From NCBI GenBank assembly GCA_009380075.1, contig WHSO01000037.1:1-32922 (forward strand): a stretch of DNA of 32,922 nt. Direction: 5' to 3'. The translations under genes and the position numbers were made by a program. Under the pieces are notes generated by a model. The model did not search any database and was not told where the DNA came from. It was given only the letters and a program-made list of their open reading frames with translations. The stretch comes from Alphaproteobacteria bacterium. GTDB lineage: Bacteria; Pseudomonadota; Alphaproteobacteria; SMXQ01. Every line of letters starts with the position of its first letter. Position 1 is the first letter of the stretch. Shown here piece after piece: positions 1,820-21,429 of this stretch.

Positions 1820-2350
1820 TCACACCCGTTCCGACAGCCAGATCGCCAGCCGCGTGCCGGCGCGGATCGCCGCCGTCAACGGGCCGTGGCACGGGGCCTC
1901 CCGCGCGCCGGATTCGATCGCGGTGCGGGCATGTTCAGCCTCGTCCTCGCGGGCGTTCTCGATCAGGCCCCTGAGCTCGGGATCGTCGGCGCCGAGGACC
2001 GCCTCCTGGCGGGCGTAGTGGCCGACGATCACCTCCTCCACGGCTTCGGTGCAGGCCATGGCCGCCTTCGGGCCCATCAGGGCCGTCGTCGCGCCGAGGG
2101 CGTATCCGGCGACGTGCCACAACGGCGACAGCGCCGTCGGCCGCACCCGGCGCGCCAGCAGCACGCGGTCGAAATCGTGCAGGTGCCGTTGCTCGGTCTC
2201 CGCCATGCGGCGGATCGCCTCGGCCGCGGGTCCCTTGTCCAGCACCGCAAGCTGGCCGGCGTAGATGCGCGCGGCGCCGTATTCCCCGGCCTGGTCGACA
2301 CGGATCATGCGGGCAACGCGCGCTTCGGCGTTATCGGTGGGCGTGGTCAT
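1820..2350 (-). CDS. coq7: Demethoxyubiquinone hydroxylase, Coq7 family
   Basis: This 176-residue protein is a membrane-associated di-iron monooxygenase that hydroxylates demethoxyubiquinone late in ubiquinone synthesis. The carboxylate-bridged di-iron ligands are all visible: E23 in VDQAGEYGA, E53-x2-H56 (ETEQRH), E105 (AVEEVIVGHY) and E137-x2-H140 (EDEAEH). Length and the start MTTPTDNAEARVARMIRVDQAGE are as usual for alphaproteobacterial Coq7. The start codon overlaps the dsbB stop by four bases (ATGA), so translation is probably coupled. Being next to DsbB makes functional sense, since DsbB passes electrons to ubiquinone. Confidence 0.93.
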   Translation of the reverse strand: MTTPTDNAEARVARMIRVDQAGEYGAARIYAGQLAVLDKGPAAEAIRRMAETEQRHLHDFDRVLLARRVRPTALSPLWHVAGYALGATTALMGPKAAMACTEAVEEVIVGHYARQEAVLGADDPELRGLIENAREDEAEHARTAIESGAREAPCHGPLTAAIRAGTRLAIWLSERV

Positions 2351-2874
2351 GTGCCGGACTCCTTCGCTTTTCGTCGTATCGCCCAGGCGCCGGCGGCGGC
2401 ATAGGCCGCCAGTGCCGCGGCGGCGACGGCATTATAGCCCGCCATGGAGACGCCGAGGAGTGACCACGCGACCTCGTCGCAACGCACCACCGGCGTCGCC
2501 TTGAGCTGCCGGGCGAGGTCGGCGGTGGTACGGGCGCCGCCGGTTTCCCCGGTGCACCCTGCGGCCCCCTGCCACCAGTGCTGCTCGACCCCGACGTGAA
2601 AGACGGCGATGGCGGCGTCGGTGGCGAGTGCGAGCGCGATCAGCGCGGCGAGACCGGCAAGCAGGCTGACGGACATGGCAGGGACGCGCGCGAGCCCGAG
2701 GCCGATTCCGGCAAGGCCGATGACGACGGCGTAGGGATACCGTTGCCACAGGCACAGTTCGCAGGGCTGCAATCCGCCCAGGTACTGGGACGCCAGCGCC
2801 GTGCCGAGGATGGCGGCGGCGGCGGCGAGCAGCACCGCGAACAGCGTCCGTGGCAGGAAGCCGTGGGGAATCAC
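2347..2874 (-). CDS. Disulfide bond formation protein, DsbB family
   Basis: The 175-residue inner-membrane protein has about four hydrophobic helices and both redox-active cysteine pairs of DsbB: C38-x2-C41 at the end of the first helix (LQPCELCLWQRYPYA) and C107 / C132 in the second periplasmic loop. DsbB reoxidises DsbA and passes electrons to quinone. The long frame continues upstream of any plausible start. I chose the GTG at 2874 because it gives a normal N-terminus (MIPHGFLPRTLFAVLL) and forms a four-base GTGA overlap with the stop of the upstream membrane-protein gene. Its own stop overlaps the coq7 start by four bases. Confidence 0.88.
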   Translation of the reverse strand: MIPHGFLPRTLFAVLLAAAAAILGTALASQYLGGLQPCELCLWQRYPYAVVIGLAGIGLGLARVPAMSVSLLAGLAALIALALATDAAIAVFHVGVEQHWWQGAAGCTGETGGARTTADLARQLKATPVVRCDEVAWSLLGVSMAGYNAVAAAALAAYAAAGAWAIRRKAKESGT

Positions 2875-3452
2875 AGCACGTACTTTACCAGCACGAACCC
2901 ACCGATCAGAAGGACGAAGAAGACGGTGCTGAGCATGCCGAGGTTGCGCTCGATGAATCCCTGGATGGGGGCGCCGAACCGCCACAGCAGCGCGCCTTCG
3001 ACGTAGAACCGCGCTCCGCGGGCAAGCGTGGCGGCAACGGCGAAGACGAGGAGGTCGAGCCCGGCGACACCCGAGGCGATGGTGATGACCTTGAACGGAA
3101 ACGGCGTCAGTGCCGCGAAGGCGACGATCCAGGCGCCCCATTCGTTGTAGCGCCGGGTGAAGTTCTGGAACTGGTCGCTGTAGCCGTAGAATTCCAGCAG
3201 CGGGCGGCCCACGGTCTCGAACAGGAGCGCGCCAATGGCGTATCCGGCGAAGGCGCCCAGCACCGACGCCGCTGTGCAGATGAAGGCGATCCGCCAGGTG
3301 CGGGCGCGATCGGCCAGCGTCATCGGGATCAGCATCACGTCAGGCGGGATGGGAAAGAACGAGCTTTCGGCGAAGCTCACCAGTGCCAGCCAGCCCTGGG
3401 CGTGGCGATGGCGGGCGAGCCGCATCGTCCAGTCGTAAAGCCCGCGCAGCAT
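2871..3452 (-). CDS. YqaA/DedA-family (VTT domain) membrane protein
   Basis: The 193-residue integral membrane protein starts with an amphipathic segment, then SFAESSFFPIPPDVMLIPM, the hallmark of the YqaA branch of the DedA/VTT superfamily: an acidic residue in a re-entrant helix followed by a PIPPD-type motif. A second re-entrant stretch appears as ALTPFPFKVITIASGVAG. Three to four further hydrophobic segments follow. DedA-related proteins are implicated in lipid flipping and proton-motive-force homeostasis; the YqaA branch is barely characterised. The gene starts ten bases after the Anbu stop and overlaps dsbB by four bases, so it is clearly co-transcribed with both. Confidence 0.82.
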   Translation of the reverse strand: MLRGLYDWTMRLARHRHAQGWLALVSFAESSFFPIPPDVMLIPMTLADRARTWRIAFICTAASVLGAFAGYAIGALLFETVGRPLLEFYGYSDQFQNFTRRYNEWGAWIVAFAALTPFPFKVITIASGVAGLDLLVFAVAATLARGARFYVEGALLWRFGAPIQGFIERNLGMLSTVFFVLLIGGFVLVKYVL

Positions 3453-3462
3453 GGGGAAGGGC

Positions 3463-4194
3463 TTACTTCAGCCAGTCGGGGTCGGGCATGTGCTCGAACG
3501 CGCCGCGCAGGGCGTTACTCCAGTATTCGCGGATTCCGGTCAGGTATTCGTCGCCCTCGGGCAGGCGCACCCGGAGCCCCGCCTTCAGGGAATCGCGCAC
3601 GTAGGTCAGGATGTCGATGGGCGGTCCGACCGAGATGTTCGACCGCATGGTCGAATCGAACGACAGGATGGCGCATTTGATTGCCTGGGCGATGGACGAT
3701 TCATGGGTGATGGTGCGGTCGATGATGGGCTTGCCGTATTTGGTCTCGCCGATCTGGAGGTACGGCGTTTCGGGCGACGCCTCGATGAAGTTCCCGGCGG
3801 AATAGATCTGGTACAGCCGCGCCTCGCGCTTGTCGATCTGGCCGCCGAAGATGAAGGCGGCGTTGAATTCGATGCCCTGTTCCTTGAGCGCGTCGCCATC
3901 GACTTCGTAGACGTTGCGCAACACGGCGCCGATCATGCGGGCGGCGGCGAACATCGTGGGCGCGGCGAAGATGTCGCCCGGGCCGCCGGTGTCGAGGTCC
4001 TCGTTCACCAGGCGCACCACGGCCTGGGTAATGGCGAGGTTGCCGGAGCCCAGAAGCGCCATGAAGCGGTCGCCCGACTTTTCGAACACGGTCATCTTGC
4101 GCGCGATCGAAACCTGGTCAACGCCCGCGTTGGTACGCGAATCCGAGGCGAAGACGAGGCCTTCGTCGAGAAGGAAGCCGACGGCGTAAGTCAT
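3463..4194 (-). CDS. Anbu, proteasome-type Ntn protease
   Basis: This 243-residue protein is the bacterial 'ancestral beta subunit' Anbu, related to HslV and 20S proteasome beta subunits. It begins MTYAVGFLLDEGLVFASDSRTNAGVDQ. T2 would become the N-terminal catalytic threonine once Met is removed, D18 matches the conserved Asp of the beta-subunit start, and K33 lies where the catalytic Lys is expected. I chose the ATG at 4194 although the frame is open further upstream, because Anbu proteins carry no propeptide and start with this motif. Anbu assembles into open helical rings; its substrates are unknown. It is separated by 132 bases from the transglutaminase gene upstream and followed closely by YqaA. 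The family's usual genomic partners (ATP-grasp, alpha-E, transglutaminase) are all here. Confidence 0.92.
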   Translation of the reverse strand: MTYAVGFLLDEGLVFASDSRTNAGVDQVSIARKMTVFEKSGDRFMALLGSGNLAITQAVVRLVNEDLDTGGPGDIFAAPTMFAAARMIGAVLRNVYEVDGDALKEQGIEFNAAFIFGGQIDKREARLYQIYSAGNFIEASPETPYLQIGETKYGKPIIDRTITHESSIAQAIKCAILSFDSTMRSNISVGPPIDILTYVRDSLKAGLRVRLPEGDEYLTGIREYWSNALRGAFEHMPDPDWLK

Positions 4195-4326: not shown

Positions 4327-5136
4327 TTATTGCGCCGCCGCCGCGACGGTTACCTTGACCCCCATGTCCTCGCCGCCGCCGCCGCGGCGGATGCCCCGGA
4401 CCGGGGCGCAGGACTGGTAGTCCGGACCGACCGCCAGCCGCACATGGGCGTCGTTGGCGCAGATCTCGTTGGTTACGTCGAAGGCGACCCAGCCGAGGTT
4501 CTCGACCCAGGATTCGCACCAGGCGTGGGAGGCGGTCTCGTCGGCGCCCTCGCCGTGAACATGCACGTAGCCCGAGACGTAGCGCGTCGGCACGCCGAGG
4601 AGGCGCGCCGCGGCAGCGAAGACATGGGCCTGGTCCTGGCAGACGCCGCTGCCCGCGGCCAGGACCGCCGCCGCTGTGGTCTCGACGCCGGTGGTGCCGG
4701 GCCGGTAGGCGACCGCGCGGGAGACCGCGCGCGACAGCTCGTGCAGGCCGTCGAGCCGGTCGGCACCGACGCGCGCGCGCAGGGGCCCGGCGAAGTCGCG
4801 CACCGCCTGGGTCGCTTCGGTCAGTGCCGTCGGGCGCAGGTACATGACCGGCCACAGATGATCGTTGTGCGCCGGGATGACGCCGACGGTATCGAGCGAT
4901 TCGACCTCGCCCTCGACGGTGATCGCGATCTCGTCGTGCGGGCCGTCGATCACCAGGACGTGCATGACGTTACCGAACCCGTCGATATGGCGGGTGGCGC
5001 GCCCCGGGGCCCGCAGGCGCCAGTCGATGACGCGCTGGCTGGCGTCGCTGCCCGGCGTCAGGCGCAAGTACTGGATGGTGCAGCGGGCGGGGTGGGTGTA
5101 GCGGTACCGGGTGGTGTGGCGGATGGCGAGGTACAT
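4327..5136 (-). CDS. Transglutaminase-like cysteine protease of the Anbu cluster
   Basis: The 269-residue protein has the bacterial transglutaminase-like N-terminal beta domain (about residues 1-80, starting MYLAIRHTTRYRY) and then a papain-fold transglutaminase-like core. The triad is intact: C166 in GSGVCQDQAH, H204 in ASHAWCESW and D220 in WVAFDVTNE. Such enzymes act as peptidases or isopeptidases rather than cross-linkers in this gene context, where they accompany an ATP-grasp amide-ligase-like protein and an alpha-E protein. The frame is open beyond the chosen ATG; this start matches the family N-terminus and lies eight bases after the alpha-E stop. Confidence 0.9.
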   Translation of the reverse strand: MYLAIRHTTRYRYTHPARCTIQYLRLTPGSDASQRVIDWRLRAPGRATRHIDGFGNVMHVLVIDGPHDEIAITVEGEVESLDTVGVIPAHNDHLWPVMYLRPTALTEATQAVRDFAGPLRARVGADRLDGLHELSRAVSRAVAYRPGTTGVETTAAAVLAAGSGVCQDQAHVFAAAARLLGVPTRYVSGYVHVHGEGADETASHAWCESWVENLGWVAFDVTNEICANDAHVRLAVGPDYQSCAPVRGIRRGGGGEDMGVKVTVAAAAQ

Positions 5137-5143
5137 GGCGGGC

Positions 5144-6097
5144 TTACTGCGCGACGAGATAGGCGGACTGGATCTCGCTCGAGAGGCGGTTGTTGCGGTT
5201 GATGAAATCGGACAGGAATTCGTGCAGGCCGTGCTGGAAGACCGCCTCGATGCGCCCGTAATGGAGCATGGCATGGAGCTCGCCCGCCTGGCGCGCCGCC
5301 TCGCCGCCGCGCGGCCCGGAGATTTCGTCCAGCAGCACGACGATCTCGTTGTGGCAGGAATGGAGCGAGCGCGGAAACGCGCTGTTGAAGATCAGCAGGT
5401 CCGCGACCTTGACCGGCGTGATCGCCTGCTTGTAGGCGTGATGGTAGTTGCGGTAGGCGGAGACCGAGCGCAGGAGCGCGCCCCACTGGAAATGGTCGAT
5501 GGCGCTGCCGACGTCGGAGATGTCGGGCAGCAGGATATGGTACTTGACGTCGAGGATGCGGGCGGTGTTGTCGGCGCGCTCCACGAAGGTGCCGAGCCGG
5601 AGGAAGTGATAGCGCTCGTCGCGCAGCATGGTGGCGACGGAGGAGCCGCGGAACAGGTGCGAGCGCTCCTTGATCCAGTCGAAGAAATTGCGGTAACCAC
5701 GCGCCGCAAGTTTCGCGGCGGTAAGGTCGGAAATCTCGAGCCAGGTGGAGTTGAGCGCCTCCCACATTTCCGTGGTGATGCCGACGCGTTCCGCCCGGGC
5801 GTTCTCCCGCGCCGCGCGGACGAGGGAATAGATGCTCGACGGGTTTTCGGGATCAAGCGTCATGTGGGAAATGACGTTGGCGGCGGTCGCCTCCGGGAAG
5901 CGCGCGTGGAAGTTGGCGGCATCGCCGGTGATTTCGAGCACGGCGTCCCATTCGCCGCCGCTGGTGCTTTCGCTGCCCGCCGGCAGCAGCCCCATGCGGT
6001 CCGACACGTCGAGGATGCGGGCCGTGTTCTCGGCGCGCTCGATCAGGCGCGACATCCAGTACAGGTGATCGGCGCTGCGCGACAGCACGATTGTCAT
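5144..6097 (-). CDS. Alpha-E domain protein (DUF403)
   Basis: This 317-residue, almost wholly helical protein begins MTIVLSRSADHLYWMSRLIERAENTARILDV, which is diagnostic of the alpha-E (DUF403) family. Glutamate-rich helical repeats appear throughout, for example FVERADNTARILDVKYH near residue 200, which echoes the N-terminal motif and suggests an internal repeat. Alpha-E proteins always travel with the circularly permuted ATP-grasp and transglutaminase-like proteins, and the set is predicted to build and trim peptide-like tags or amides; no reaction is proven. The start has a strong GGAGGT six bases upstream. The region before it holds three near-copies of that ribosome-binding-site and start module. 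Confidence 0.9.
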   Translation of the reverse strand: MTIVLSRSADHLYWMSRLIERAENTARILDVSDRMGLLPAGSESTSGGEWDAVLEITGDAANFHARFPEATAANVISHMTLDPENPSSIYSLVRAARENARAERVGITTEMWEALNSTWLEISDLTAAKLAARGYRNFFDWIKERSHLFRGSSVATMLRDERYHFLRLGTFVERADNTARILDVKYHILLPDISDVGSAIDHFQWGALLRSVSAYRNYHHAYKQAITPVKVADLLIFNSAFPRSLHSCHNEIVVLLDEISGPRGGEAARQAGELHAMLHYGRIEAVFQHGLHEFLSDFINRNNRLSSEIQSAYLVAQ

Positions 6098-6163
6098 GCT
6101 GGACCTCCGGTCCACGGCGTCATGCCGCACCTCCGGTGCGGGGTCACGGCGCACCTCCGGCGC
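6094..6163 (-). repeat. Three tandem copies of a ribosome-binding-site plus start module
   Basis: Read on the minus strand, CGGAGGT followed by a short spacer and an RTGAC start appears three times at steps of 24 and 26 bases, with starts at 6147 (GTG), 6123 (ATG) and 6097 (ATG, the alpha-E start). On the plus strand the cores are small imperfect palindromes at 6101-6113, 6127-6139 and 6151-6163. The ATG at 6123 opens a nine-codon frame (MTPWTGGPA) whose TGA overlaps the alpha-E ATG by four bases. The GTG at 6147 is in frame with this mini-ORF and extends it to 17 codons. The three starts are not all in frame with alpha-E, so the copies do not simply extend it. Confidence 0.6.
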
Positions 6164-6169
6164 GCCGGA

Positions 6170-7600
6170 TCATGGGCGGCGTCCCCCGCGCAGGACCCAG
6201 GTGTCCTTGGTGCCCCCGCCCTGGGAGGAATTCACCACCAGGGAGCCCTCGGTCAGCGCCACCCGGGTCAACCCGCCGGGCACCACGGTCGAATTGGTGC
6301 CGGTCAGCACATAGGGCCTGAGGTCCACGTGGCGCGACGCGACGCCCCTCTCGGTGAAGGTCGGGCAGGTCGACAGCGACAGTGTCGGCTGGGCGATGAA
6401 GTTGCCGGGGTCGGCCAGGATGCGGGCGCGGTAGGCGGCGATCTCGGCCTTGCTGGCGGCGGGCCCCACCAGCATGCCGTAGCCGCCGGCGCCACCCACT
6501 TCCTTGACCACGACCTCGTGCAGACGATCGAGGACGTAGGCGAGATCGTCGGCCTTGCTCAGCTGCCAGGTCGGGACGTTGGACAGGATCGGCGCCTCGC
6601 CCAGGTAGAAGTCGATCATATCCGGCACGAAGGTGTACATCGCCTTGTCGTCGGCGACGCCGGTGCCGATGGCGTTGGCCAGCGTCACGCCGCCGGCGCG
6701 GTAGGCGGCGAGAAGCCCCGGCACGCCAAGGATGGAATCGGGGTTGAAGGCCAGCGGGTCGAGGTATTCGTCGTCGACGCGGCGGTAGATCACGTCGACC
6801 TGGACCGGGCCGTGGGTGGTGCGCATGAACACGTGGTCGTCCTTGACGAACAGGTCCTCGCCCTCGACCAGCTCGACCCCCATCTCGTCGGCGAGGAACA
6901 CGTGCTCGAAATAGGCGGAATTGTAGATTCCCGGCGTCATCAGGGCGACCGTCGGCTGGGTCACGCCGGGCGGCGCCACCGCGCGCAGGTTCTGCAGCAG
7001 CAGTTCCGGGTAGTTGTTCACCGGGGCGATGCGGTGGCCGGAGAACAGGCTCGGGAACAGGCGCATCATCACCTCGCGGTTCTCCAGCATGTAGCTGACG
7101 CCCGACGGATTGCGCAGGTTGTCCTCGATCACGTAGAACTCGCGCTCGCCGACGCGCACGAGGTCGATGCCGGTGATGTGGATATAGGTGTCGCCGGGCA
7201 GGTCGAGGCCCTGCATCTCCGGCCGGTACTTGGGGTTGGTGAACACCGCCTCGGGGGGAATGCGCCCGGCCTTGACGATCTCCTGGTCGTGGTAGATGTC
7301 GTGCAGGAAGGCGTTGATGGCGTGCACGCGCTGCAGGCATCCGCGCTCGATCAGGGACCACTCCTCCTGGGTCAGCACCCGGGGGATGATGTCGAAGGGG
7401 ATCAGGCGCTCGACGCTCTCGGCGGTGCCGTAGACCAGGAAGGTGATGCCCATGCGCCGGAACAGGACCTCGGCTTCCTTGCGCTTGGCCTTGAACTCGC
7501 GCGCCGGCACGGACGCGAGCCAGCGCGCGATTGCATCATAGGCATCGCGCACGGTGTCGCTATCACCGTGCATCTCATCGAAGAACTTCCCTGACGCCAT
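6170..7600 (-). CDS. Circularly permuted ATP-grasp family protein (DUF404/DUF407)
   Basis: The 476-residue protein is a full-length member of the circularly permuted ATP-grasp family found with alpha-E and transglutaminase-like proteins. Recognisable blocks include RRMGITFLVYG, FDIIPRVLTQEEWSLIERG, the metal/ATP-site stretch YVIEDNLRNPSGVSYMLENR, LVEGEDLFVKDDHVF, the central YRRVDDEYLDPLAFNPDS, and the C-terminal SSQGGGTKDTWVL. ATP-grasp enzymes make amide bonds through acyl-phosphate intermediates, so a ligase that builds a peptide or conjugates a small amine is the standing prediction; no substrate is known. It is the first gene of the leftward operon. Its stop lies 73 bases from the alpha-E start, with a repeated translation-start module in between. 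Confidence 0.9.
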   Translation of the reverse strand: MASGKFFDEMHGDSDTVRDAYDAIARWLASVPAREFKAKRKEAEVLFRRMGITFLVYGTAESVERLIPFDIIPRVLTQEEWSLIERGCLQRVHAINAFLHDIYHDQEIVKAGRIPPEAVFTNPKYRPEMQGLDLPGDTYIHITGIDLVRVGEREFYVIEDNLRNPSGVSYMLENREVMMRLFPSLFSGHRIAPVNNYPELLLQNLRAVAPPGVTQPTVALMTPGIYNSAYFEHVFLADEMGVELVEGEDLFVKDDHVFMRTTHGPVQVDVIYRRVDDEYLDPLAFNPDSILGVPGLLAAYRAGGVTLANAIGTGVADDKAMYTFVPDMIDFYLGEAPILSNVPTWQLSKADDLAYVLDRLHEVVVKEVGGAGGYGMLVGPAASKAEIAAYRARILADPGNFIAQPTLSLSTCPTFTERGVASRHVDLRPYVLTGTNSTVVPGGLTRVALTEGSLVVNSSQGGGTKDTWVLRGGRRP

Positions 7601-8747: not shown

Positions 8748-9449
8748 ATGGCAGAGGGCCAGGGCGAAGATCGACATAGCAAGGCCCATGCGCCAGAGTT
8801 AATTTCTGACCCTGCGGAGCGTGCCGAACGGGAAGCTAAGAACGCGCTCGTTCAGTTTGACGTAGCCAAACAAGCGATAGAACAATTCACAACGGATGGG
8901 GACCGGCCGTTCAGTTTGCGGCCCTCGTTAATTATGTCGCTGCACAGGGCCGCCCTTGATGGACTCAGCGAGTTCGCTGGCGTGTATCGGCCAGCTGGTG
9001 TTGAGATTGGCAAGAGCAAACATCAACCGCCGGGGGCGCACCAAATACCAGAACTCGTAGAAGAACTCTGCGACTATGTGAACAAGAACTGGGATACGCA
9101 GTCGGCAGTGCATCTCGCAGCTTATGTCATGTGGAGATTGAACTGGATTCATCCCTTTGACGACGGTAACGGGAGGACCTCCAGAGCTGTATCGTATGTT
9201 GTACTCTGCGTTCGCACAGGCCAATCTCTACCAGGCACATACACGATTCCAGAGCAGATATCTGAGAACAAATCGCCTTACTACAAAGCATTGGAAGTAG
9301 CTGATGCTGCTTGGAAGGACGGCCAAGTGGACGTCTCTCAAATGGAAGTCCTTATGGGGGATATGCTCGCAAGGCAGCTTGCAGATGTTTTAAACAAGGC
9401 GAAGAATCCAGTGCCGAACGAGACCAATACAGACCGAACACTCCATTGA
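8748..9449 (+). CDS. Fic-domain AMP-transferase (putative toxin)
   Basis: The 233-residue protein contains the complete Fic active-site motif, H135-P-F-D-D-G-N-G-R-T-S-R146, with catalytic His135, the Mg-binding Asp139 and both arginines, so it should be able to transfer AMP from ATP to a target hydroxyl. Preceding helices (LMSLHRAALDG, FAGVYRPAGVEIG, flap region) match the family, including the target-docking flap around VEIGKSKHQPPGAHQI. No inhibitory helix is obvious within the protein, so it is best placed in class I, silenced by a separate antitoxin, for which the preceding gene is the candidate. It has only a weak ribosome-binding site and may depend on translation of the upstream gene. 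Target unknown. Confidence 0.88.
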   Translation: MAEGQGEDRHSKAHAPELISDPAERAEREAKNALVQFDVAKQAIEQFTTDGDRPFSLRPSLIMSLHRAALDGLSEFAGVYRPAGVEIGKSKHQPPGAHQIPELVEELCDYVNKNWDTQSAVHLAAYVMWRLNWIHPFDDGNGRTSRAVSYVVLCVRTGQSLPGTYTIPEQISENKSPYYKALEVADAAWKDGQVDVSQMEVLMGDMLARQLADVLNKAKNPVPNETNTDRTLH

Positions 9450-10223: not shown

Positions 10224-10982
10224 CTACGCGAACCGCCGCCGTCGCGAAAGGGCGAGGCGAAAGGCGAGCGCGCTCACCGCGAAGGCGACGACGAGGACGG
10301 GCCCCGCCGGCAGGTCGAGCAGGCCCGAGACGAGGATGCCGCCCGCCACCGCCGCGCCGGCGGAAGTCCAGGCCATCCCCAGCCGCGGGCCGTCGAGCGT
10401 GTTCACCGCCAGCGCCGGCAGGATCAGGCTGGAAAAGACGACGTAGACGCCGACCAGGCGCACCGCCGCGGTGACGGCAAGCGCGAACAGGATGAAGAAG
10501 GCGGCGCCCTGCCGCAGCCTCGGTGCCGCCAGCCAGACGACGCCGACGCCCGCGAGGACCGGCGCCGCCATGGCGATATCGGCCCAGGAGGCGAGCAGGA
10601 TCTGGCCCGAGAGGAGCCGGGTCATTTCGTCGCCCCCGTGGGGATGCTTGTCCAGCGCCAGAAGGGCGGCGGAGGCGGCGAGGACGTAGCAGCAGCCGAT
10701 CACCGCTTCCTGCTCGTCGGGGAGGACCCTCTCGACCCAGCGGAAGAACAGGGCTGCCACGACCGCCGCCGCGGCGCTCGCCGCCTGAACGCCGATCCAC
10801 GATCCTTCATATCCTATGAGGGCAAGGGCGACGATCACGAAGCCCACGATCTGGGCGATGGCGAGGTCGATGAACACGATCCCCCGCCGCAGCACCTCGA
10901 TGCCCAGCGGCGCGTGGGCGAAGGCCACCAGCAATCCGGCGACCAGCGCCGGGGCCACGATCTCGACGGTCTCCATCGTCAT
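10224..10982 (-). CDS. Metal (zinc/manganese) ABC transporter permease, ZnuB-like
   Basis: The 252-residue protein has seven to nine hydrophobic segments of the ABC-3 family. It opens METVEIVAPALVAGLLVAFAHAPLGIEVLRRGIVFIDLAIAQIVGF, the standard start of ZnuB/MntB permeases, and keeps PDEQEAVIGCCYVLAASAALL and RLVGVYVVFSSLILPALAV, a typical region for contact with the ATPase. I chose the ATG at 10982 (MTMETVEI) over a long upstream extension because it matches the family and overlaps the receptor stop by four bases (ATGA). No ATP-binding subunit gene is next to it. A zinc role is inferred from the receptor and from the Zur-like site upstream of the operon. Confidence 0.87.
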   Translation of the reverse strand: MTMETVEIVAPALVAGLLVAFAHAPLGIEVLRRGIVFIDLAIAQIVGFVIVALALIGYEGSWIGVQAASAAAAVVAALFFRWVERVLPDEQEAVIGCCYVLAASAALLALDKHPHGGDEMTRLLSGQILLASWADIAMAAPVLAGVGVVWLAAPRLRQGAAFFILFALAVTAAVRLVGVYVVFSSLILPALAVNTLDGPRLGMAWTSAGAAVAGGILVSGLLDLPAGPVLVVAFAVSALAFRLALSRRRRFA

Positions 10983-11914
10983 GGCTGCGCCTTCCTTTTT
11001 GCCGCGGTCTCGAGGAGCGTGACGGTGCGCTCGAACACCTCGTGCAGCGTGCGGGCGCCTTGGCCATCGCGGGTGTCGGCGCCGACCGTATAGGGCAGCG
11101 TCAGCGCCGGAATCTTTGCCCGGGACGACAGCCATTCCGAGGCCTGCGGCGAATCGTACGGCGCGCGGAAGATGGCCGCGACGTTCTGCGCGCGCGTCAG
11201 CCGCAGCAGGGACTCGAGGTGCGATGCCGTCGGCGGCAGGCCCGGCTTCGGCTCCAGCGCCGCGACTTCCTTCAGTTCCAGCCAGGCGACGAGATAGCTC
11301 CACGCCTTGTGCTGGACGATGACCGGCATGTCGCGGAAGACCCGGGCACGGGTCTGCCATTCGGCGATGGCCCGGTTCCAGGTGGCGCGAAAGGCCTCCG
11401 CCCGCGCGGCGTAATAGGCCTTGCCCTCGGGGTCGAGGAGCGCGAGGCGCTCCGCCACCACCCCGGCCAGGGTGACGAGGTTGCGGGGGTCGAGGTGCAG
11501 GTGCGGATTGCCTTCCGGGTGGAGGTCGCCCTGGGCGCGGTCCAGCACCGCGGGCTTGTCCAAAAGGGCGACGTGCTCCGCCGCCATCAGGTGGCCGGGA
11601 CGGCCCGGCTGCACACCGGCCGGCGCCCCGCGTTGCAGCAGGACGGGCAGCCAGCCGATCTCGAGCCCCGCGCCGGAGCAGAACAGCAGGTCGGCGCGGC
11701 GGATCCGGGCGATCAGGCTGGGCCGCGCGCGGATGTGGTGCGGGTCCTGCATGACGGTGGTGGCCGCGAAGGCCTCGACCCGGTCGCCGCCGATGTCGGT
11801 CGCCAGCGCCGCCCATTCGGGTTCGCAGGCGAAGACGTCGACGGCCGCGCGGGCAGGGAAGGCGCCCGCCGCCGCAATGGCGGCGGCGAGCACGAGAGTT
11901 GCAAATCGGATCAT
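10979..11914 (-). CDS. Metal ABC transporter substrate-binding protein, ZnuA-like
   Basis: The 311-residue periplasmic protein has a Sec signal peptide (MIRFATLVLAAAIAAAGAFPARA, cut near residue 23). Candidate metal ligands of the cluster 9 receptor family are H59/H60 in DPHHIRARPS, H138 or H140 in GNPHLHLDP, H202 in IVQHKAWSYL, and an acidic residue later on. It lacks the long His/Asp-rich loop of ZnuA of E. coli. The start is ten bases after the porin stop, and the stop overlaps the permease start by four bases. The receptor should hand metal to the permease encoded next to it. Confidence 0.87.
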   Translation of the reverse strand: MIRFATLVLAAAIAAAGAFPARAAVDVFACEPEWAALATDIGGDRVEAFAATTVMQDPHHIRARPSLIARIRRADLLFCSGAGLEIGWLPVLLQRGAPAGVQPGRPGHLMAAEHVALLDKPAVLDRAQGDLHPEGNPHLHLDPRNLVTLAGVVAERLALLDPEGKAYYAARAEAFRATWNRAIAEWQTRARVFRDMPVIVQHKAWSYLVAWLELKEVAALEPKPGLPPTASHLESLLRLTRAQNVAAIFRAPYDSPQASEWLSSRAKIPALTLPYTVGADTRDGQGARTLHEVFERTVTLLETAAKRKAQP

Positions 11915-14757: not shown

Positions 14758-15246
14758 ATGTCTGAAGAAATGATCATGACGACGGGCATGCACAGCCTCA
14801 ACCACACCGCCATGCCGGTCCACGACATGGCGGCGGCGGAAGCCTTCTATTGCGATGTCCTCGGCGCCACGGCGCATCAGGCGACCTGCTTTTCGCTGGA
14901 GGACGTCAAGACCGGCGCCGCCATCTTCAAGTCCTTCGTCATCGGCGACTTCCTTCTCGCGCTGACGGTGGCGCGCAACAGCATGGACATGCCACCCCCG
15001 GACCGGTTCCGGGGCGCGCACGGCTATCGTCACGGTTTCCAGGTGTCCCGTGCGCGCTTCGACGAAATCCGTGCCGCGCTTGACGCCCACCGCGTGCCCT
15101 ACCAGGGGCCGGTGGCGCATCCGGAAAAGGGTCCCTTCGGCGCGTCGCTCTATTTCAAGGACCCGAGCGGCAATTTCCTCGAATTCGTCTGGCGCCGCGA
15201 CGAGGACGCCCTGCCCAGGAACCGCAGTTACCTGAGCCCCGAATGA
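14758..15246 (+). CDS. VOC family protein (extradiol dioxygenase-like)
   Basis: The 162-residue protein is a single VOC unit pair with an intact metal site: H16 in LNHTAMPVHDM, H92 in HGYRHGFQV and E142 in DPSGNFLEFVW, the 2-His-1-carboxylate set used for Fe(II) or another divalent metal. It starts 13 bases after the fusion gene behind GAGGAGG. Its stop overlaps the next start by four bases. Members of this superfamily cleave catechols, isomerise, or detoxify; the substrate cannot be read from sequence. Confidence 0.85.
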   Translation: MSEEMIMTTGMHSLNHTAMPVHDMAAAEAFYCDVLGATAHQATCFSLEDVKTGAAIFKSFVIGDFLLALTVARNSMDMPPPDRFRGAHGYRHGFQVSRARFDEIRAALDAHRVPYQGPVAHPEKGPFGASLYFKDPSGNFLEFVWRRDEDALPRNRSYLSPE

Positions 15247-16160
15247 TGACGTTGAACGGGGGCGTCTTTCAGTGCCTGTCGCACCTGGTGGTCGATGTTG
15301 CAGACCTCGACGCGGCCGAGGCGTTCTATCGCGACGGCCTCGGCCTGCAGCCGATCGGACGCGACGCCTGGCCCGATGCCGGGGCCAATGCCGTGCTCAA
15401 GGCGGGCGACCAGCACCTGGTGCTGTCGCGCAAGGCCGACCGGCCGGACCTGTCGGCCACCGGCGTGCACCAGGGCTATCGCATCGGCGCGGGCGGGCGT
15501 GAGGAGGTGCGCGGACGCCTGCAGCGCCTCGGTGTGACGGTGGAAACCTACCACGAGGACCGCCCAGCCGAGGCCAGGGACAACTTCTACGCCTTCGATC
15601 CGTCGGGCAACCGGGTGCAGTTGGTGGTGGACTCGCGCCTCGACGGCGGGCCGGGGGTGGCGGGCATCGATCACGCCTGCGTGCAGGACTACGACATGCA
15701 ATGGGCGCAGGAATTCTACGGCGGCATGCTTGGCCTGGCCCTCGATCACGTCTCCGGCCTGCACACCGACGACTACCTTCGCGCCCAAGCCTGGGGTGAT
15801 GAGAAGGAAGCCATGGCACCGGGCTGTTGCCGCCTCGTCAAGTACTACCGCGAGATCCCCGGCCAGAACCGGATGCAGCCCCGCCCCAGCCTGCAAATGT
15901 ATTTTCGTGCCGGAAGCGGAGTCATCGGTGTCTACATGGCGATGGAAGACTATGCCGAGCCGCCGGAGGAACAGCTTGTCGGCACGCCGCGCACGGCGCT
16001 GCGGGTCGCAAAAGGCAAGCTCGACACGGTGGCGCGGGCGCTGGAGGCGCGTGGCCGCTCGTTCTGCGGTCCCGTCGACCACGGCGGCAACGGCGCCATC
16101 GGCCGGTCGCTCTACAGCCGCGACACCGGCGGTAACTTCATCGAATTTTGCGAGGCCTAG
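15243..16160 (+). CDS. Two-module VOC protein, catechol 2,3-dioxygenase-like
   Basis: The 305-residue protein holds two VOC modules, the size and order of two-domain extradiol dioxygenases. The first (residues 1-130) has SHLVVDVADLDAAEAFY and DPSGNRVQLVV, where the usual Glu is Gln. The second (from VAGIDHACVQDYDMQWAQEFYGGMLG) begins with a conserved His and ends DTGGNFIEFCEA with the Glu in place. In two-domain extradiol enzymes only the C-terminal module binds iron, so loss of the ligand in module one is normal; the middle His of module two is not clearly visible (GSGVIGVYMAMED). The start overlaps the preceding stop (ATGATGA). Confidence 0.82.
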   Translation: MMTLNGGVFQCLSHLVVDVADLDAAEAFYRDGLGLQPIGRDAWPDAGANAVLKAGDQHLVLSRKADRPDLSATGVHQGYRIGAGGREEVRGRLQRLGVTVETYHEDRPAEARDNFYAFDPSGNRVQLVVDSRLDGGPGVAGIDHACVQDYDMQWAQEFYGGMLGLALDHVSGLHTDDYLRAQAWGDEKEAMAPGCCRLVKYYREIPGQNRMQPRPSLQMYFRAGSGVIGVYMAMEDYAEPPEEQLVGTPRTALRVAKGKLDTVARALEARGRSFCGPVDHGGNGAIGRSLYSRDTGGNFIEFCEA

Positions 16161-16226: not shown

Positions 16227-17468
16227 ATGACCGCATCCGTCACCGACCCCATCGGCCAGGGTCAGCTCTATCCCCAGTTTTCCCTCGCCGAGCGCGACCG
16301 GCGCTGGAAGCTGGTCCGGTCGCTGATGGCCAAGGAGGACCTGCCGGTCATCGTCGTGCCCAACAACACGGGGCATTCGACCGATTTCCAGGCGTCGGCG
16401 CGCTGGCTCAGCCATGTCGGCGGCGGCGGCGATACCGAAGTGGCGGTGACCTTCCCACTGGAGGGCGAGCCGTCGGCCTGCGCCAACCGCGCCAACACCG
16501 ACTGGTCGGCGCCGGTGCAGCACTGGACGACCAAGCTCTACAACACCCGGCGCAACACCGTGTCGGGGGTGATCGAACATCTGCGCGAGCTCAAGACCGA
16601 CCGCGGCAAGGTCGGTGTCGTCGGGCTCGGCGCCGGCACGCGCACGCCCATGGGCACCATCCTGCAAGGCTTCTACACCCAGATGCGCGACGCGTTTCCC
16701 AATGCCCAGTTCGTCGACGCGACACATATCCTGGAGGAAGCGCGCTACCAGAAGAGCGAGGAAGAAGTCGCCGCCCTGCAGAAGTCCATCGACATCATCG
16801 AAAAAGGCATTGAGGCCAAGGTGGCCGCCGCCAGGCCCGGCGTCGTCGACTGGCACATCTGGGCCGCGGTGCAGTCGGCGCTGCTGATGAACGGGTCCGA
16901 AATCCCGGTGCACTGCAACTGGGTCTGCGGGCCCAACGCCAAGCACACGCGCACGCGGGCGACGTTCCGCAAGATCGAGAAGGGCGACCTCATCATCAAC
17001 GAGATCGAGGCCTCGTGGATCGGCTACCGCGCCCAGCAAGTGCAACCGGTGTTCGTCCAGGAAGTCGATCCCGTGCACGCGGAACTGATCAAGGTGCAGG
17101 GCGAGGTCTATGCCCGCCTGCTCGAGATCCTCAGGCCCGGCGTCACGGTGGGCGAGATGGCGGAAAAGACCAAGGAGATCACCGCTAGGGCGCTGCCGGC
17201 CAAGGGCCCGGCAGCGGGCGCCCGCGGCCGGCTCAATATGCACGGCCGCGGCCAGGGCGACGACGGTCCGCTGATCACGCCGGGCCAGGTGCGGCCCGAG
17301 CAGCTCGCGCGTCCGCTCAGGGAGAACATGGCCTTCATCTTCAAGCCCGCGGTCATTACCGCGGATGAAAAATACGAATCGGTCTGGGGCGATACCATCA
17401 TCATCACGCCGAAGGGCGGGCGGAGGCTCGGCTCGCGCCCGCACGGCCACCTGGTTTCCGGTCTTTAG
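16227..17468 (+). CDS. M24-fold (pita-bread) protein with most metal ligands replaced
   Basis: The 413-residue protein has a creatinase-type N-terminal domain (about 1-170) and an M24 pita-bread domain. Aligned by eye to aminopeptidase P, the five metal ligands read E259 (Asp expected), Q270 (Asp expected, in IGYRAQQVQP), H339 (conserved, NMHGRGQ), K373 (Glu expected, IFKPAV) and G388 (Glu expected, VWGDTIIIT). With one of five clearly retained, a two-metal peptidase is unlikely. The fold also hosts the metal-free hydrolase creatinase, so a metal-independent C-N or other lyase/hydrolase is possible. It lies 66 bases after the VOC gene and 14 bases before the bicupin gene, all on one strand. 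Confidence 0.8.
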   Translation: MTASVTDPIGQGQLYPQFSLAERDRRWKLVRSLMAKEDLPVIVVPNNTGHSTDFQASARWLSHVGGGGDTEVAVTFPLEGEPSACANRANTDWSAPVQHWTTKLYNTRRNTVSGVIEHLRELKTDRGKVGVVGLGAGTRTPMGTILQGFYTQMRDAFPNAQFVDATHILEEARYQKSEEEVAALQKSIDIIEKGIEAKVAAARPGVVDWHIWAAVQSALLMNGSEIPVHCNWVCGPNAKHTRTRATFRKIEKGDLIINEIEASWIGYRAQQVQPVFVQEVDPVHAELIKVQGEVYARLLEILRPGVTVGEMAEKTKEITARALPAKGPAAGARGRLNMHGRGQGDDGPLITPGQVRPEQLARPLRENMAFIFKPAVITADEKYESVWGDTIIITPKGGRRLGSRPHGHLVSGL

Positions 17469-17482
17469 GGAGCAGCAGCATC

Positions 17483-18616
17483 ATGGCGACACGCGTATTC
17501 GATCCGACCGGAGTCTACGAGGGAGTGGACGACCTCAAGAGCCTCAAGACCTTCTACGAGGACTGGCAGGACCGCGAAGGCGTCCCCGTCCATACCACCT
17601 TCCATATCGAGGACCTCGCCACCGTGCCGGTCGGCCCGTGGAAGCGCTTCGGCGCGAAAGGGTGCTTCATCAATCTGGCGGACTGTCACATCGTCGCCGC
17701 CGCCATGCTGGAGATTCCGCCCGGCGGCAAGACGAATCCGGTCAAGCACATGTTCGAGAGCTGGTGCTACGTCGTCCACGGACGCGGGGAAACCACCTTC
17801 GAGCAGCCGGGCACCGCCGGCGGGCGCGTCGAGTGGGAGGACCGCGGCCTGTTCGGCCCGCCGCTCAACACCACCTATCAGCACCGCAACCTCGATCCCG
17901 CGAAGCCCGCGCGCATCCTTCTGGTGACCAACGCGCCGGTGACCATGAACCTCTATCATTCCGACGAATTCATCTTCGACAACCCGTTCGTGTTCAAGGA
18001 CCGCTTCCGCGGCCAGAACGACTTCTTCAATCCGGTCATGGAATACATGCGGCCCAAATATCTGGGCGCGCGGGTGTTGCGGTCAAACCTCGTGCCGGAC
18101 GTGCTGGAGACGTCGCTCGCCCACTGGGCGCTGCGCGGTCATGCCGCCAAGACGGTGCACCTGTCGATGAGCGATCACACCATGGCGGCGCATATCTCCG
18201 ACTTCGAGGTGGGCACCTACAAGAAGGCCCACCGCCACGGTCCCGGCGCCCATGTCATCCTGCTGCAGGGAACCGGCTACTCGCTGATCTGGAAGGAGGG
18301 CGAGCCGCGCCAGCGTGTCGACTGGAAGCCCGGCACCATGTTCGCGCCGCCGGAATGGTATTTCCACCAGCACTTCAACACCGGCAAGGAGCCGGCGCGC
18401 TACCTCGCGCTGCGCCGCGGCGGCAGCCCCGAACACAAGATGAAGATCGGCATGTCCGGCGGCGAGAAGGCCGAGGGCCCCGACCAGATCGAATACGAAT
18501 ACGAAGACCCCGCGATCTACGAGGAGTTCGTCGCGGAACTGAAAAAGAACGGCGCTGAATGCCGCCAGCCGCGGCCCGTCTATGCATCGGGCCCGCGTCC
18601 GGATTTCAAGGATTGA
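17483..18616 (+). CDS. Bicupin protein
   Basis: The 377-residue protein contains two cupin barrels. The first (about 65-165) has GGKTNPVKHMFESWCYVVHGRGETTF, with only one clear His of the usual set. The second (about 245-330) has YKKAHRHGPGAHVILLQGTGYSLIW, matching HxHx5-6H of a metal-binding cupin motif, followed by PEWYFHQHFN in motif 2. Bicupins of this size include gentisate dioxygenase and oxalate decarboxylase relatives; sequence around the motifs does not identify either with confidence. Only the second barrel appears equipped for metal. It is likely co-translated with the M24-like gene and may act on the same small molecule. Confidence 0.8.
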   Translation: MATRVFDPTGVYEGVDDLKSLKTFYEDWQDREGVPVHTTFHIEDLATVPVGPWKRFGAKGCFINLADCHIVAAAMLEIPPGGKTNPVKHMFESWCYVVHGRGETTFEQPGTAGGRVEWEDRGLFGPPLNTTYQHRNLDPAKPARILLVTNAPVTMNLYHSDEFIFDNPFVFKDRFRGQNDFFNPVMEYMRPKYLGARVLRSNLVPDVLETSLAHWALRGHAAKTVHLSMSDHTMAAHISDFEVGTYKKAHRHGPGAHVILLQGTGYSLIWKEGEPRQRVDWKPGTMFAPPEWYFHQHFNTGKEPARYLALRRGGSPEHKMKIGMSGGEKAEGPDQIEYEYEDPAIYEEFVAELKKNGAECRQPRPVYASGPRPDFKD

Positions 18617-18657: not shown

Positions 18658-20013
18658 ATGATCCGAATCACCGCAGCCGTCAGCGCCGCGTTTCTTGCCG
18701 CGGTCGCCGCCGCGCCGGCGCCCCGCGCGGCCGACTTGCCCCAGGCCACCCGGGACATGCTCATGGAGCTCAAGATCGACGAAAAGCTCCTCGCCGGCTC
18801 CGAGAAGGAATACGAGGTTCCCGCCGCATGGCTCGCGGGGGCGAAGAAGGAAGGAGCGCTCAAGATCATCGGCACCTGGGACCCGTCCCAGCATCGCAAG
18901 TACATGAAGCCGTTCCAGGAGCGCTACCCCGGCGTCAAGTTCGACTACACCCGCGCCGGCCGCAGCGACCGGACGGTGAAGCCGCTGCTGGCCTTCAAGG
19001 AAGGGCGCTATCTCGGCGACGTCATCTCGGGCCTCGGCAACGCCTATTTCATCTACCGCGATTCCAAGGCGCTGATGAAGCTCACCGATCTGCCCAACGC
19101 CAGGCTGCTGGGCGACGATCTGCTCGATCCCGCCGGTTTCTGGATCGGCCATCAGGCAAGCTATTGGTGCGTGAGCTACAACAAGAACCTGGTCAAGCAG
19201 GCGGACCTGCCCAGGACCTGGGACGGTTTTCTCGACGCCGCCAAGTGGGGCAACGGACGCATCGGCATGGGCAACCGCGCAAACCTCTGGTTCCTGCAGC
19301 TGTGGAAGGCTCACGGCGTCGACTGGGCGCGCAACTTCATGGACAAGCTGTTCAACGAGGTGAAGCCGCAGCAGCGCAAGGAAGGCATGAACGCGCTGGT
19401 GGGCCTGGTGATCGCCGGCGAGTTCGCCGTCACCATCCCGTCGGCCATGTATCGCGTCTCGCAGCTCGCCGACAAGGGTGCGCCGGTCGGTTATCACTGC
19501 CCCGAGCCGGTACCCTCAACCGTGCAATCCATCGTGGCGCTCAACGGTAATCCCCACCCCAACGGCACGCGCGTCTACATCAACTGGATGCTGAGCAAGG
19601 AAGGCCAGATCGCGCAGTACTACGCCCTGCAGGCGTCCTCGGTGCGCGAGGAGCTGCAGATCCCGGAGCTGGTCGCCTTCCCCGAGGCGGTCAAGGGTAA
19701 GAAGAAGACCTTCCGCGATCCCGAGACCCTGCAGCAGACCTGGCCCCAGGTGCTCAAGGCCTGGAGCGCTCATTGGGACTCCGCGAGCGGCGTCAAGACG
19801 GTCACCGCGAAGCTCGACAAGGTGATCCGCGGCGGCCGCCAGCTCCAGTTCAAGGCCGGAAAATCCACCCACACGGTCAAGATTTCCCAGTCGCGTACCG
19901 CCATGCGCGTCGCCGGCAAGAAGGCCGGGCGCGGCGACTTCAAGGAAGGCATGCAGTGCACGTTCGTCTATCCCGACGACAAGGGCGAGGCGCGCGAAGT
20001 CATCTGCAAGTAA
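18658..20013 (+). CDS. Iron-type ABC solute-binding protein A with extra C-terminal domain
   Basis: The 451-residue secreted protein has a signal peptide (MIRITAAVSAAFLAAVAAAPAPRAA, cut near residue 25), an N-terminal helical stretch, then an AfuA/FbpA-like periplasmic binding fold (about 65-330). A further 70-residue C-terminal segment is rich in beta strands and lies beyond the usual family length. It has exactly four cysteines, C171 (SYWCVSYN), C281 (YHCPEPVP), C434 and C450, which match those of the next gene one for one and could form two disulfides. The start follows AGAGGAGGT. No permease or ATPase gene accompanies it, so it may serve a distant transporter or work as a binding or enzyme partner. 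Confidence 0.83.
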   Translation: MIRITAAVSAAFLAAVAAAPAPRAADLPQATRDMLMELKIDEKLLAGSEKEYEVPAAWLAGAKKEGALKIIGTWDPSQHRKYMKPFQERYPGVKFDYTRAGRSDRTVKPLLAFKEGRYLGDVISGLGNAYFIYRDSKALMKLTDLPNARLLGDDLLDPAGFWIGHQASYWCVSYNKNLVKQADLPRTWDGFLDAAKWGNGRIGMGNRANLWFLQLWKAHGVDWARNFMDKLFNEVKPQQRKEGMNALVGLVIAGEFAVTIPSAMYRVSQLADKGAPVGYHCPEPVPSTVQSIVALNGNPHPNGTRVYINWMLSKEGQIAQYYALQASSVREELQIPELVAFPEAVKGKKKTFRDPETLQQTWPQVLKAWSAHWDSASGVKTVTAKLDKVIRGGRQLQFKAGKSTHTVKISQSRTAMRVAGKKAGRGDFKEGMQCTFVYPDDKGEAREVICK

Positions 20014-20055
20014 CCGGACGCGAAGATACCCAACGAATCAACAGGAGGGCTCACC

Positions 20056-21429
20056 ATGTCGCACATCTCCATCCTCGGTCGCGCCGCCGCGCTGGCGGCC
20101 GTTGCCGGCCTCGTTGCCTTCGGCGCCGCCCCGGCCGCGGAGCTTCCGGCGGCAACGAAGAAGATCCTCAAGGAGCTGAAGGTCCCGGAATCGATCCTGG
20201 ACGATATCGACCAGGAGCTCGCCGTGCCCAAGGCATGGATCGAGGGCGCCCGGAAGGAAGGGGAGGTTCGGATCGTCGATACCCATTCCGACAAGGTCCA
20301 CGCGCAGATGACCGCACCGTTCCGCGCGCGTTATCCGTTCATCAAGATCCGGAACACCCGCGGCTCGTACCAGTCGCGCACCACCCGGGTCATGATCGCG
20401 ATCCAGGCCGGCAACTACACCACCGACATTGCCATGGACTACGGCGGTTATTACGAGCAATTCCACAAGGCGGGCATGCTCCACGACATGCGCGAGCTTC
20501 CCAACTTCACCAAGGTGCCCGAGCAGGCGCGCGGCAAGGACGGCACCTGGGTGGCGCATCGCCGCCAGTACTGGTGCGTGAGCTACAACACCAACAAGAT
20601 CAAGAAAGCCGACCTGCCCAAGACCTGGGACGGGTTTCTCGATGACCCGCGCTGGCGCAACGGCATGATGGCGATCGGCAATCGGCCGCAGCTTTGGATC
20701 CTGATGCTGTGGGGCCATTACGGGCCCGATTACGCCAAGCGGTACATGGCGCGCCTGTTCAACGAGGTGAAGCCGCAGCTTCGCAAGGAAGGCATGAACG
20801 CGCTGGTGTCGCTCACTATCGCCGGCGAATTGCCGCTTGCGGTGCCGTCCTCCGAATACCGGGTACAGCTCTCCCAGGAGAAGGGCGCGCCCGTGGGCTA
20901 CCACTGTCCCGAGCCGGTGCCGGCCTCGATGGCGGAGATGGGCATCTTCAAGGGCAACCCGCACATGAACGCGGCCCGGCTTTACGTCAACTGGCTGCTC
21001 TCCAAGGAGGGGCAAATCGCCCAGTTCTACGCCTCGCGCTCGGTGCCGATCCACGAGGGGCTGCAGCGCAAGGAGTTCGTTCCCTTCGCCGAGGAGATCC
21101 AGGGCAAGAAGATCGCCCTGCGCGCGCCCGAACTGATGCGCGATTCGAGCGTCGAGGTGCAGAAGATCTGGGGCGAGCACTGGGCCAAGGCGACGGGCGA
21201 GGGGCCGGAGCGCACGGTTTCGATCAAGATCGAGAAAATCCAGAAGAAGGGCGCCGCGGTCGATTTCAAGCTCGCGGGCAAGCCCGAAACGGCGGCCATT
21301 TCCGGCAGCCGGACCACGATCACCGTGGGCGGCAAGAAGGTGCGGCGCAACGCGCTGAAGGCGGGGCTCGAATGCCAGATCACCTACCGCGGTTCAGGCA
21401 CCGAGGCGACGGCGCTGGCCTGCAAGTAG
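20056..21429 (+). CDS. Iron-type ABC solute-binding protein B, paralogue of A
   Basis: The 457-residue protein is a tandem paralogue of the preceding one with the same layout: signal peptide (cut after APAAA, near residue 28), helical stretch, two-lobed binding fold, and the same C-terminal beta segment. Long shared blocks include YWCVSYN, LPKTWDGFLD, LFNEVKPQLRKEGMNALV and GAPVGYHCPEPVP. Its four cysteines (C174, C284, C440, C456) are in the same places. Lining residues differ, for example TGTWDPSQHRK in A versus VDTHSDKVHAQ here, so the two may bind different ligands. It starts 42 bases after the first gene, behind AGGAGG. It is probably the last gene of the operon. Confidence 0.83.
   Translation: MSHISILGRAAALAAVAGLVAFGAAPAAELPAATKKILKELKVPESILDDIDQELAVPKAWIEGARKEGEVRIVDTHSDKVHAQMTAPFRARYPFIKIRNTRGSYQSRTTRVMIAIQAGNYTTDIAMDYGGYYEQFHKAGMLHDMRELPNFTKVPEQARGKDGTWVAHRRQYWCVSYNTNKIKKADLPKTWDGFLDDPRWRNGMMAIGNRPQLWILMLWGHYGPDYAKRYMARLFNEVKPQLRKEGMNALVSLTIAGELPLAVPSSEYRVQLSQEKGAPVGYHCPEPVPASMAEMGIFKGNPHMNAARLYVNWLLSKEGQIAQFYASRSVPIHEGLQRKEFVPFAEEIQGKKIALRAPELMRDSSVEVQKIWGEHWAKATGEGPERTVSIKIEKIQKKGAAVDFKLAGKPETAAISGSRTTITVGGKKVRRNALKAGLECQITYRGSGTEATALACK

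Follow-up and report, generated by a model that had tools for sequence, protein, structure and literature searches.

A predicted OB-fold domain at the C-terminus of two unrelated families of solute-binding proteins in an alphaproteobacterial lineage

Two adjacent genes for secreted solute-binding proteins (SBPs), here called P1 and P2, encode proteins that share an additional domain of roughly 70 residues at their C-terminal end (CTD). Judged from sequence comparison, this CTD is a single, lineage-wide and transferable tag carried by at least two unrelated SBP families, the MctA-like ABC-type and the TctC/Bug-type receptors. We favor, with a probability of about 0.4, a reading of the CTD as a tag that these receptors have in common for attachment to the envelope or for assembly. 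We consider the claims on architecture to be firm and the functional claim to be of moderate strength.

The window, that is, the whole stretch of 32,922 nucleotides that was analyzed, belongs to the contig carrying P1 and P2, C106 of their own genome (G000); its relevant features are collected in Table 1. P1 and P2 are both on the + strand with 42 bp between them, their products are 44-45% identical, a GAGGAGG motif lies 5' of the P1 start codon, and both proteins have a signal peptide-like N-terminus. The gene order on this strand is glyoxalase-superfamily, M24-like, cupin, P1, and P2, with gaps of 14-66 bp in the upstream run, and the three upstream genes are probable operon partners of the pair. 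An NnrS gene comes next after P2. The original prediction held that no transporter was near. This was correct for FbpB-type permeases, which gave no match on C106, and for TctA, since none of the 19 TctA places listed out of 21 in the genome is on this contig, but not for the window, which contains a ZnuA gene (10979-11914, - strand) followed by an ABC-3 type permease frame, the pair spanning 10224-11914. No ATPase for these two was found among the window frames tested. We judged this zinc transporter to be unrelated to P1 and P2, as it combines a ZnuA-type SBP with an ABC-3 permease on the opposite strand. The window also contains a transglutaminase-like gene near a circularly permuted ATP-grasp gene (4327-7600, - strand), a Fic/DOC family gene (8748-9449, + strand), and a DsbB-like gene (2347-3141, - strand), which bears on periplasmic disulfide formation.

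Table 1. P1, P2, their domains and cysteines, and the genes upstream, in window coordinates
Feature	Position	Strand	Description	Basis
Glyoxalase/dioxygenase-superfamily protein	15243..16160	+		Pfam
M24 metallopeptidase-like protein	16227..17468	+		Pfam
Cupin protein (Cupin_2)	17483..18616	+	41 bp upstream of P1	Pfam
P1	18658..20013	+	secreted MctA/FbpA-like SBP with CTD, 451 aa	Pfam, alignment
P1 Cys171	19168..19170	+	body pair	
P1 Cys281	19498..19500	+	body pair	
P1 CTD (predicted OB-fold)	19810..20010	+		profile match
P1 Cys434	19957..19959	+	CTD pair	
P1 Cys450	20005..20007	+	CTD pair	
P2	20056..21429	+	P1 paralogue, same architecture, 457 aa	Pfam, alignment, structure model
P2 Cys174	20575..20577	+	body pair	
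P2 Cys284	20905..20907	+	body pair	
P2 CTD (predicted OB-fold)	21208..21426	+	model residues 385-457	
P2 Cys440	21373..21375	+	CTD pair	
P2 Cys456	21421..21423	+	CTD pair, second-last residue	

In both proteins, residues ~83-340 were covered by the Pfam families SBP_bac_1, SBP_bac_8, and SBP_bac_6, with membership above the curated cut-off (for P1, SBP_bac_1 at 61.6 bits and SBP_bac_8 at 61.1 bits; for P2, SBP_bac_8 at 58.9 bits), and the last 75 residues of either protein matched no Pfam family. The full-length model of P2 had a mean pLDDT of 91.8 and a two-lobed SBP fold. Its residues 48-380 superposed on MctA, a Mg2+-citrate SBP, with a Z of 31.3 and an rmsd of 2.6 over 320 residues at 19% identity, and the body model also superposed on FbpA-type proteins. 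P1 and P2 thus have their body fold and SBP_bac_8/1/6 assignments in common with MctA and the FbpA/HitA family, whereas residues 385-457 of P2 fall outside every structural match listed and a conserved body cysteine pair marks the P1/P2 group. The body matches the solved MctA in length, so that the excess length of P1 and P2 is essentially the CTD. The earlier claim that both are longer than usual receptors is therefore right as far as the extra domain is concerned, but the body itself (residues 48-380) has MctA length. NCBIfam tied 7 of 51 long CTD proteins to 2-aminoethylphosphonate SBPs, suggesting that "iron-type", as these receptors had been called, is a label for the fold and not for the ligand.

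The CTD is not limited to this gene pair. P2 had 78 matches in its own genome, mostly to frames of ~430-460 aa and many to the last 70 residues only, and a search with its last 75 residues gave 57 further places at E <= 1 (best, 1e-17). An iterated profile applied to the fetched stretches of this genome gave a total of 57 CTD open reading frames (ORFs) at E of about 1e-13 or better, much more than chance would give, P1 and P2 being two of them; the common extra domain proposed originally was thus confirmed by a profile match in both proteins. By blastp clustering, 42 of the 57 fall into a TctC-type cluster and 9 into an MctA-like cluster. The remaining ORFs are three small stand-alone secreted proteins on contig C3 and three that are truncated, frame-broken or fragmentary (on C55, C80:98997, and C100). 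Among the 51 long proteins, Pfam recognized TctC (PF03401) in 28 at E <= 0.01 and SBP_bac families in 9; the other members of the TctC cluster were joined to the PF03401-matching ones by blastp. CTD-less SBPs of both families coexist with the carriers in the same genomes: 43 of 83 TctC-type ORFs in the fetched G000 stretches had the CTD, a partial sample whose ratio is not a genome total. At one locus of this genome (C100:12552-13665), a TctC-type body and a CTD lie in separate frames, through a frameshift or an assembly error.

The order was represented by 11 genomes from five genera of one family; every one carried the CTD, in 7-69 copies, compared with 0 of 50 other genomes in a first draw. 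Among 398 genomes drawn from the phylum, only the own genome had it (0 of 397 others), and a draw of 385 genomes from the class gave 11, five of them from the order; because at most 15 candidates were scored per genome in these two draws, the counts are lower bounds. Confinement to the order was refuted by clear matches in five genomes from two further families of the class, four in one family (G499, G592, G674, and G744, with 2-4 copies each) and one in another (G608, with 1 copy); a further genome, G576, had a marginal, partial match. These counts suggest that the CTD has multiplied in the order but occurs seldom in the rest of the class. A sequence of G004, a genome of the own family, is 95.9% identical over 342 bases to a contig of the MAG N075bin64 (accession prefix SMXQ01); SMXQ01 is given as an order name in two papers, and the window probably belongs to this order. 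No plasmid record encoded a CTD match, and the relatives with the CTD that had titles were all metagenome-assembled genomes (MAGs), none titled as a cultured strain. The 31 named loci held 33 MctA-like relatives, a count from which three distant SBPs were excluded; 19 of these relatives had the CTD, all from MAGs of the own group. The 14 CTD-less ones comprised two cut at contig ends, two from the MAG JAURLI01, which has CTD carriers too, and ten from other lineages. The complete CTD-less relatives end just past the body, suggesting that the CTD is an addition.

We next compared the history of the CTD with that of its carriers. On a tree of TctC bodies built from 113 of 121 TctC-type ORFs (short ORFs and short alignments were left out), CTD presence changes at least 13 times, six of these changes being forced by well-supported branches, which suggests that the CTD moves as a module. 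Among 22 reciprocal best pairs between G000 and G005, which belong to different genera, a sample picked around CTD genes, the CTD was present in both members of 19 pairs, in neither of 2, and in one only of 1. Mean CTD identity was 0.41 within TctC carriers, 0.43 within MctA-like carriers, and 0.40 between the two families; the sequence of the CTD, as far as these alignments tell, is independent of the SBP family that carries it. Since TctC bodies had a mean identity of only 0.30, against 0.40-0.41 for the CTD, constraint seems to act on the CTD itself. CTD and body identity were hardly correlated in pairs with a body identity below 0.40 (r = 0.12); over all pairs, r was 0.35, exceeding all 500 permutations. 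In G005, two adjacent TctC-type proteins (C17:611069-614180) each carry two tandem CTDs.

The alignment of P1 with P2 confirmed the earlier observation that each has four cysteines at matching positions (Table 1). The four did not prove to be one feature. The body pair, Cys174 and Cys284 in P2 numbering, was invariant in 35 of 35 aligned rows, including 14 in which no CTD is seen (two of the 14 end at contig ends), so a single four-cysteine system was ruled out. Judged from these alignments, there are two cysteine pairs that do not depend on each other, that of the body being older than that of the CTD. The CTD pair was invariant in 55 of 55 aligned CTDs, one cysteine at about residue -17 and the other at most 3 residues from the end. 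This alignment holds 55 of the 57 CTDs; the two omitted copies, the fragment C80:98997 and the stand-alone copy C3:1538, both retain the two cysteines. Some stand-alone CTD proteins have two extra cysteines. In the CTD model, one cysteine of the pair lies where strand 5 begins and the other where strand 6 ends, which would suit a cross-strand disulfide, and the CTD cysteines likely form a disulfide at the very C-terminus. Such a pair, ending at the C-terminus in every aligned row, would also fit a passive folding or stability cap, in which a disulfide-locked barrel resists C-terminal proteolysis and owes its spread to duplication and recombination. That SBPs of any kind carry the CTD and that it lacks a known ligand motif agree with such a cap, but stand-alone and doubled copies are hard to explain by it, as is the conservation of basic residues, R10 in 46, K19 in 41, K37 in 49, and R41 in 42 of 55 rows. 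We therefore consider a passive cap rather unlikely.

The isolated CTD was modeled with a pLDDT of 88.9 and a pTM of 0.71 as six strands, and the predicted structure is a small barrel of the OB-fold type. OB-folds dominated the Foldseek list of the CTD, with CusF at E 0.034; no match reached E <= 0.001, nor did any among viral models. In the VIA comparison, CusF (Z 8.4), PilY2 (Z 7.6), and an S-layer self-assembly domain (Z 7.6) were near the top, and OB domains of tRNA synthetases scored close to them; a Z of 8.4 comes close to the score that a common arrangement gives, and is evidence for the fold, not for the function. CusF, PilY2, and S-layer self-assembly domains are small extracytoplasmic OB-fold barrels, as the CTD is predicted to be, but at 8-12% identity and without a significant Foldseek E-value we do not claim membership. 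Searched by profile against solved structures, the CTD had no significant match (best E, 0.17). Among the best 25 of 32 Pfam families, none matched more than 2 of 55 CTDs, and two stand-alone CTD proteins gave no Pfam match to the CTD, ZinT and DUF5666 included. DUF5666, a candidate among Pfam families of small secreted proteins with OB-like folds, was absent among the Pfam rows listed for the CTDs, and in the open-licence PMC literature no paper treated it together with an OB-fold. The idea that the CTD is a standard SBP lobe was rejected, as the region lies beyond the MctA-matching body and is predicted to be an OB-fold.

The original prediction also suggested that the CTD might bind a ligand itself. 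CusF and the added ZinT domain of AdcA could serve as models for ligand or metal binding, and the superposition of the CTD on CusF, its best fold match (rmsd 2.1 over 64 residues), the conservation of Met48 in 51 of 55 rows, and the two cysteines could be read in this way. The metal site of CusF consists of conserved His, Met, and Trp. In contrast, no His or Trp column of the CTD had a majority among the 55 rows, only one Met is conserved, and identity to CusF is 8%. The cysteines are probably in a disulfide, with a DsbB gene in the window, and the same CTD serves SBPs of different families. Because conserved ligands are lacking, ligand or metal binding by the CTD is very unlikely. The CTD had a positive net charge in 51 of 51 proteins (median, +9); SBP bodies of G005 are also strongly basic, and we set aside binding of a polyanion because the charge is partly a genome-wide trend. 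C-terminal sorting domains are likewise elements found at the C-terminus irrespective of protein family, and in SBPs the CTD always comes last and terminates in CK or similar, whichever SBP family carries it, as would be expected of a signal for sorting or secretion to or across the outer membrane. In the CTD protein sequences listed, however, no transmembrane stretch or known sorting motif was seen, and such a signal is highly improbable. A lipobox was found in 1 of 87 CTD proteins tested, the export signals being otherwise of the non-lipoprotein type.

The main rival to a shared tag is that the CTD docks SBPs to a membrane transporter, TctA/TctB foremost, so that many SBPs could share few permeases. 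We examined the neighboring genes for this, counting a permease as linked when it was on the same strand within 2.5 kb and using 19 of 21 TctA places in G000 and 11 of 12 in G005. G000 has 74 TctC matches against 21 TctA matches, which fits many receptors sharing few permeases. TctC-CTD genes were linked to tctA in 2 of 43 cases in G000 (1 of 43 to an ABC permease) and in 5 of 34 in G005. MctA-like CTD genes were linked to ABC permeases in 1 of 9 cases in G000 and 2 of 4 in G005. Most carriers, then, adjoin neither TctA nor an ABC permease. On C3 of G000, the order is cupin, tctA, tctB-like, tctA, tctB-like, three stand-alone CTD genes, and tctC-CTD, the last lying just beyond the 2.5 kb limit because of the three genes between. 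A G005 locus reads cupin, tctA, tctB-like, one stand-alone CTD gene, tctC-CTD, and an ornithine cyclodeaminase-like gene, and at a G002 locus cupin-like genes and a tctA fragment accompany a stand-alone CTD gene and tctC-CTD. Two genera thus have stand-alone CTD genes placed between tctB and tctC-CTD, and a third genus has one next to a fragment of tctA; the name tctB here rests on position and membrane stretches, as the Pfam TctB match was weak in G005 and absent in one C3 copy tested. These stand-alone genes within tctAB operons, at 1535-2914 of locus L050 and 5553-5858 of locus L109, encode small secreted proteins, and the frame that holds the tctA remnant of G002 is at 3440-4066 of locus L156.

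The genomes outside the order have 13 CTD genes, of which 5 are immediate neighbors of tctA; at three of these loci tctB is present as well. The five loci, in G674, G744, G592, G499, and G608 (one locus checked by Pfam), and the stand-alone genes between tctB and tctC are what docking would lead one to expect. However, the same CTD occurs on MctA-like SBPs next to FbpB-type ABC permeases (on C153 of G000, at two G005 loci and one in G007), tctA also adjoins 7 of 40 TctC genes without a CTD that were sampled from G000, and the tctA beside the G002 stand-alone gene is only a fragment. Carriers are found next to TctA at some loci, next to FbpB-type permeases at others and, for the most part, next to neither, a pattern that speaks against a single permease as partner; docking to TctAB appears improbable to us. 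Together with a CTD sequence that is equally similar on two unrelated SBP families, the same distribution makes plausible the original suggestion that the CTD docks to an unusual partner.

Its own constraint, its occurrence on two SBP families that use different transporters and mostly have none nearby, and its free-standing and doubled copies point to the CTD as a common handle, as a shared envelope-attachment or assembly tag would be. CTD-bearing proteins would leave the cytoplasm by Sec export, and the CTD would fold round a disulfide that pins its last strand and bind either one common envelope partner or other CTD copies. Receptors of differing specificity may thereby be held or organized alike in the periplasm; the SBP body alone would bind the ligand, the CTD setting location or company. 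Several observations weigh against a shared tag: CTD-less SBPs of both families are present in the same genomes, the fold matches are weak and OB-folds have many roles, the basic charge is partly genome-wide, and the five tctA-adjacent genes outside the order fit permease docking equally well.

A bolder version, which we regard as unlikely, is that the CTD is a universal connector that joins dozens of different receptors into a single array bound to the envelope, in which the stand-alone copies would act as caps or adaptors. Such an array would be a bacterial counterpart of the archaeal bindosome. The listings of open-licence PMC papers on extra SBP domains and bindosomes contained no description of the CTD, and this kind of assembly, if real, would be new among them. 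Extra domains on SBPs are known from other systems, as far as the parts of the reports consulted go. BP0403, a TAXI SBP of a TAXI-GltS system, resembles P1 and P2 in being an SBP with added domains, and these alter its oligomeric state and partner; they are N-terminal and helical, and BP0403 is a predicted lipoprotein serving one transporter, unlike P1 and P2 with their C-terminal domain (PMC12344293). AdcA, a two-domain zinc SBP, also has an added C-terminal domain, a ZinT domain that aids zinc uptake (PMC7858048), whereas the CTD had no ZinT match among the Pfam rows listed and no conserved histidine.

Expansions of TctC/Bug SBPs are described in Rhodoplanes, with 434 copies, and in Bordetella, and in the portion of that report available to us most of the expanded proteins lack an adjacent tctAB, as here; orphan SBP families without a transporter are a standing puzzle there, and the word "C-terminal" is absent from the main text as consulted (PMC5994714). 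The TctC-type proteins described here differ in bearing a predicted OB-fold CTD in about half of the partial sample given above, one that is common to another SBP family. An add-on domain common to unrelated SBP families offers a handle on whether orphan receptors have a partner in common. G674, a one-contig genome of 4.15 Mb outside the order, may provide a simple test system, as it has only four CTD copies, one of them in a tctC-tctA-tctB operon.
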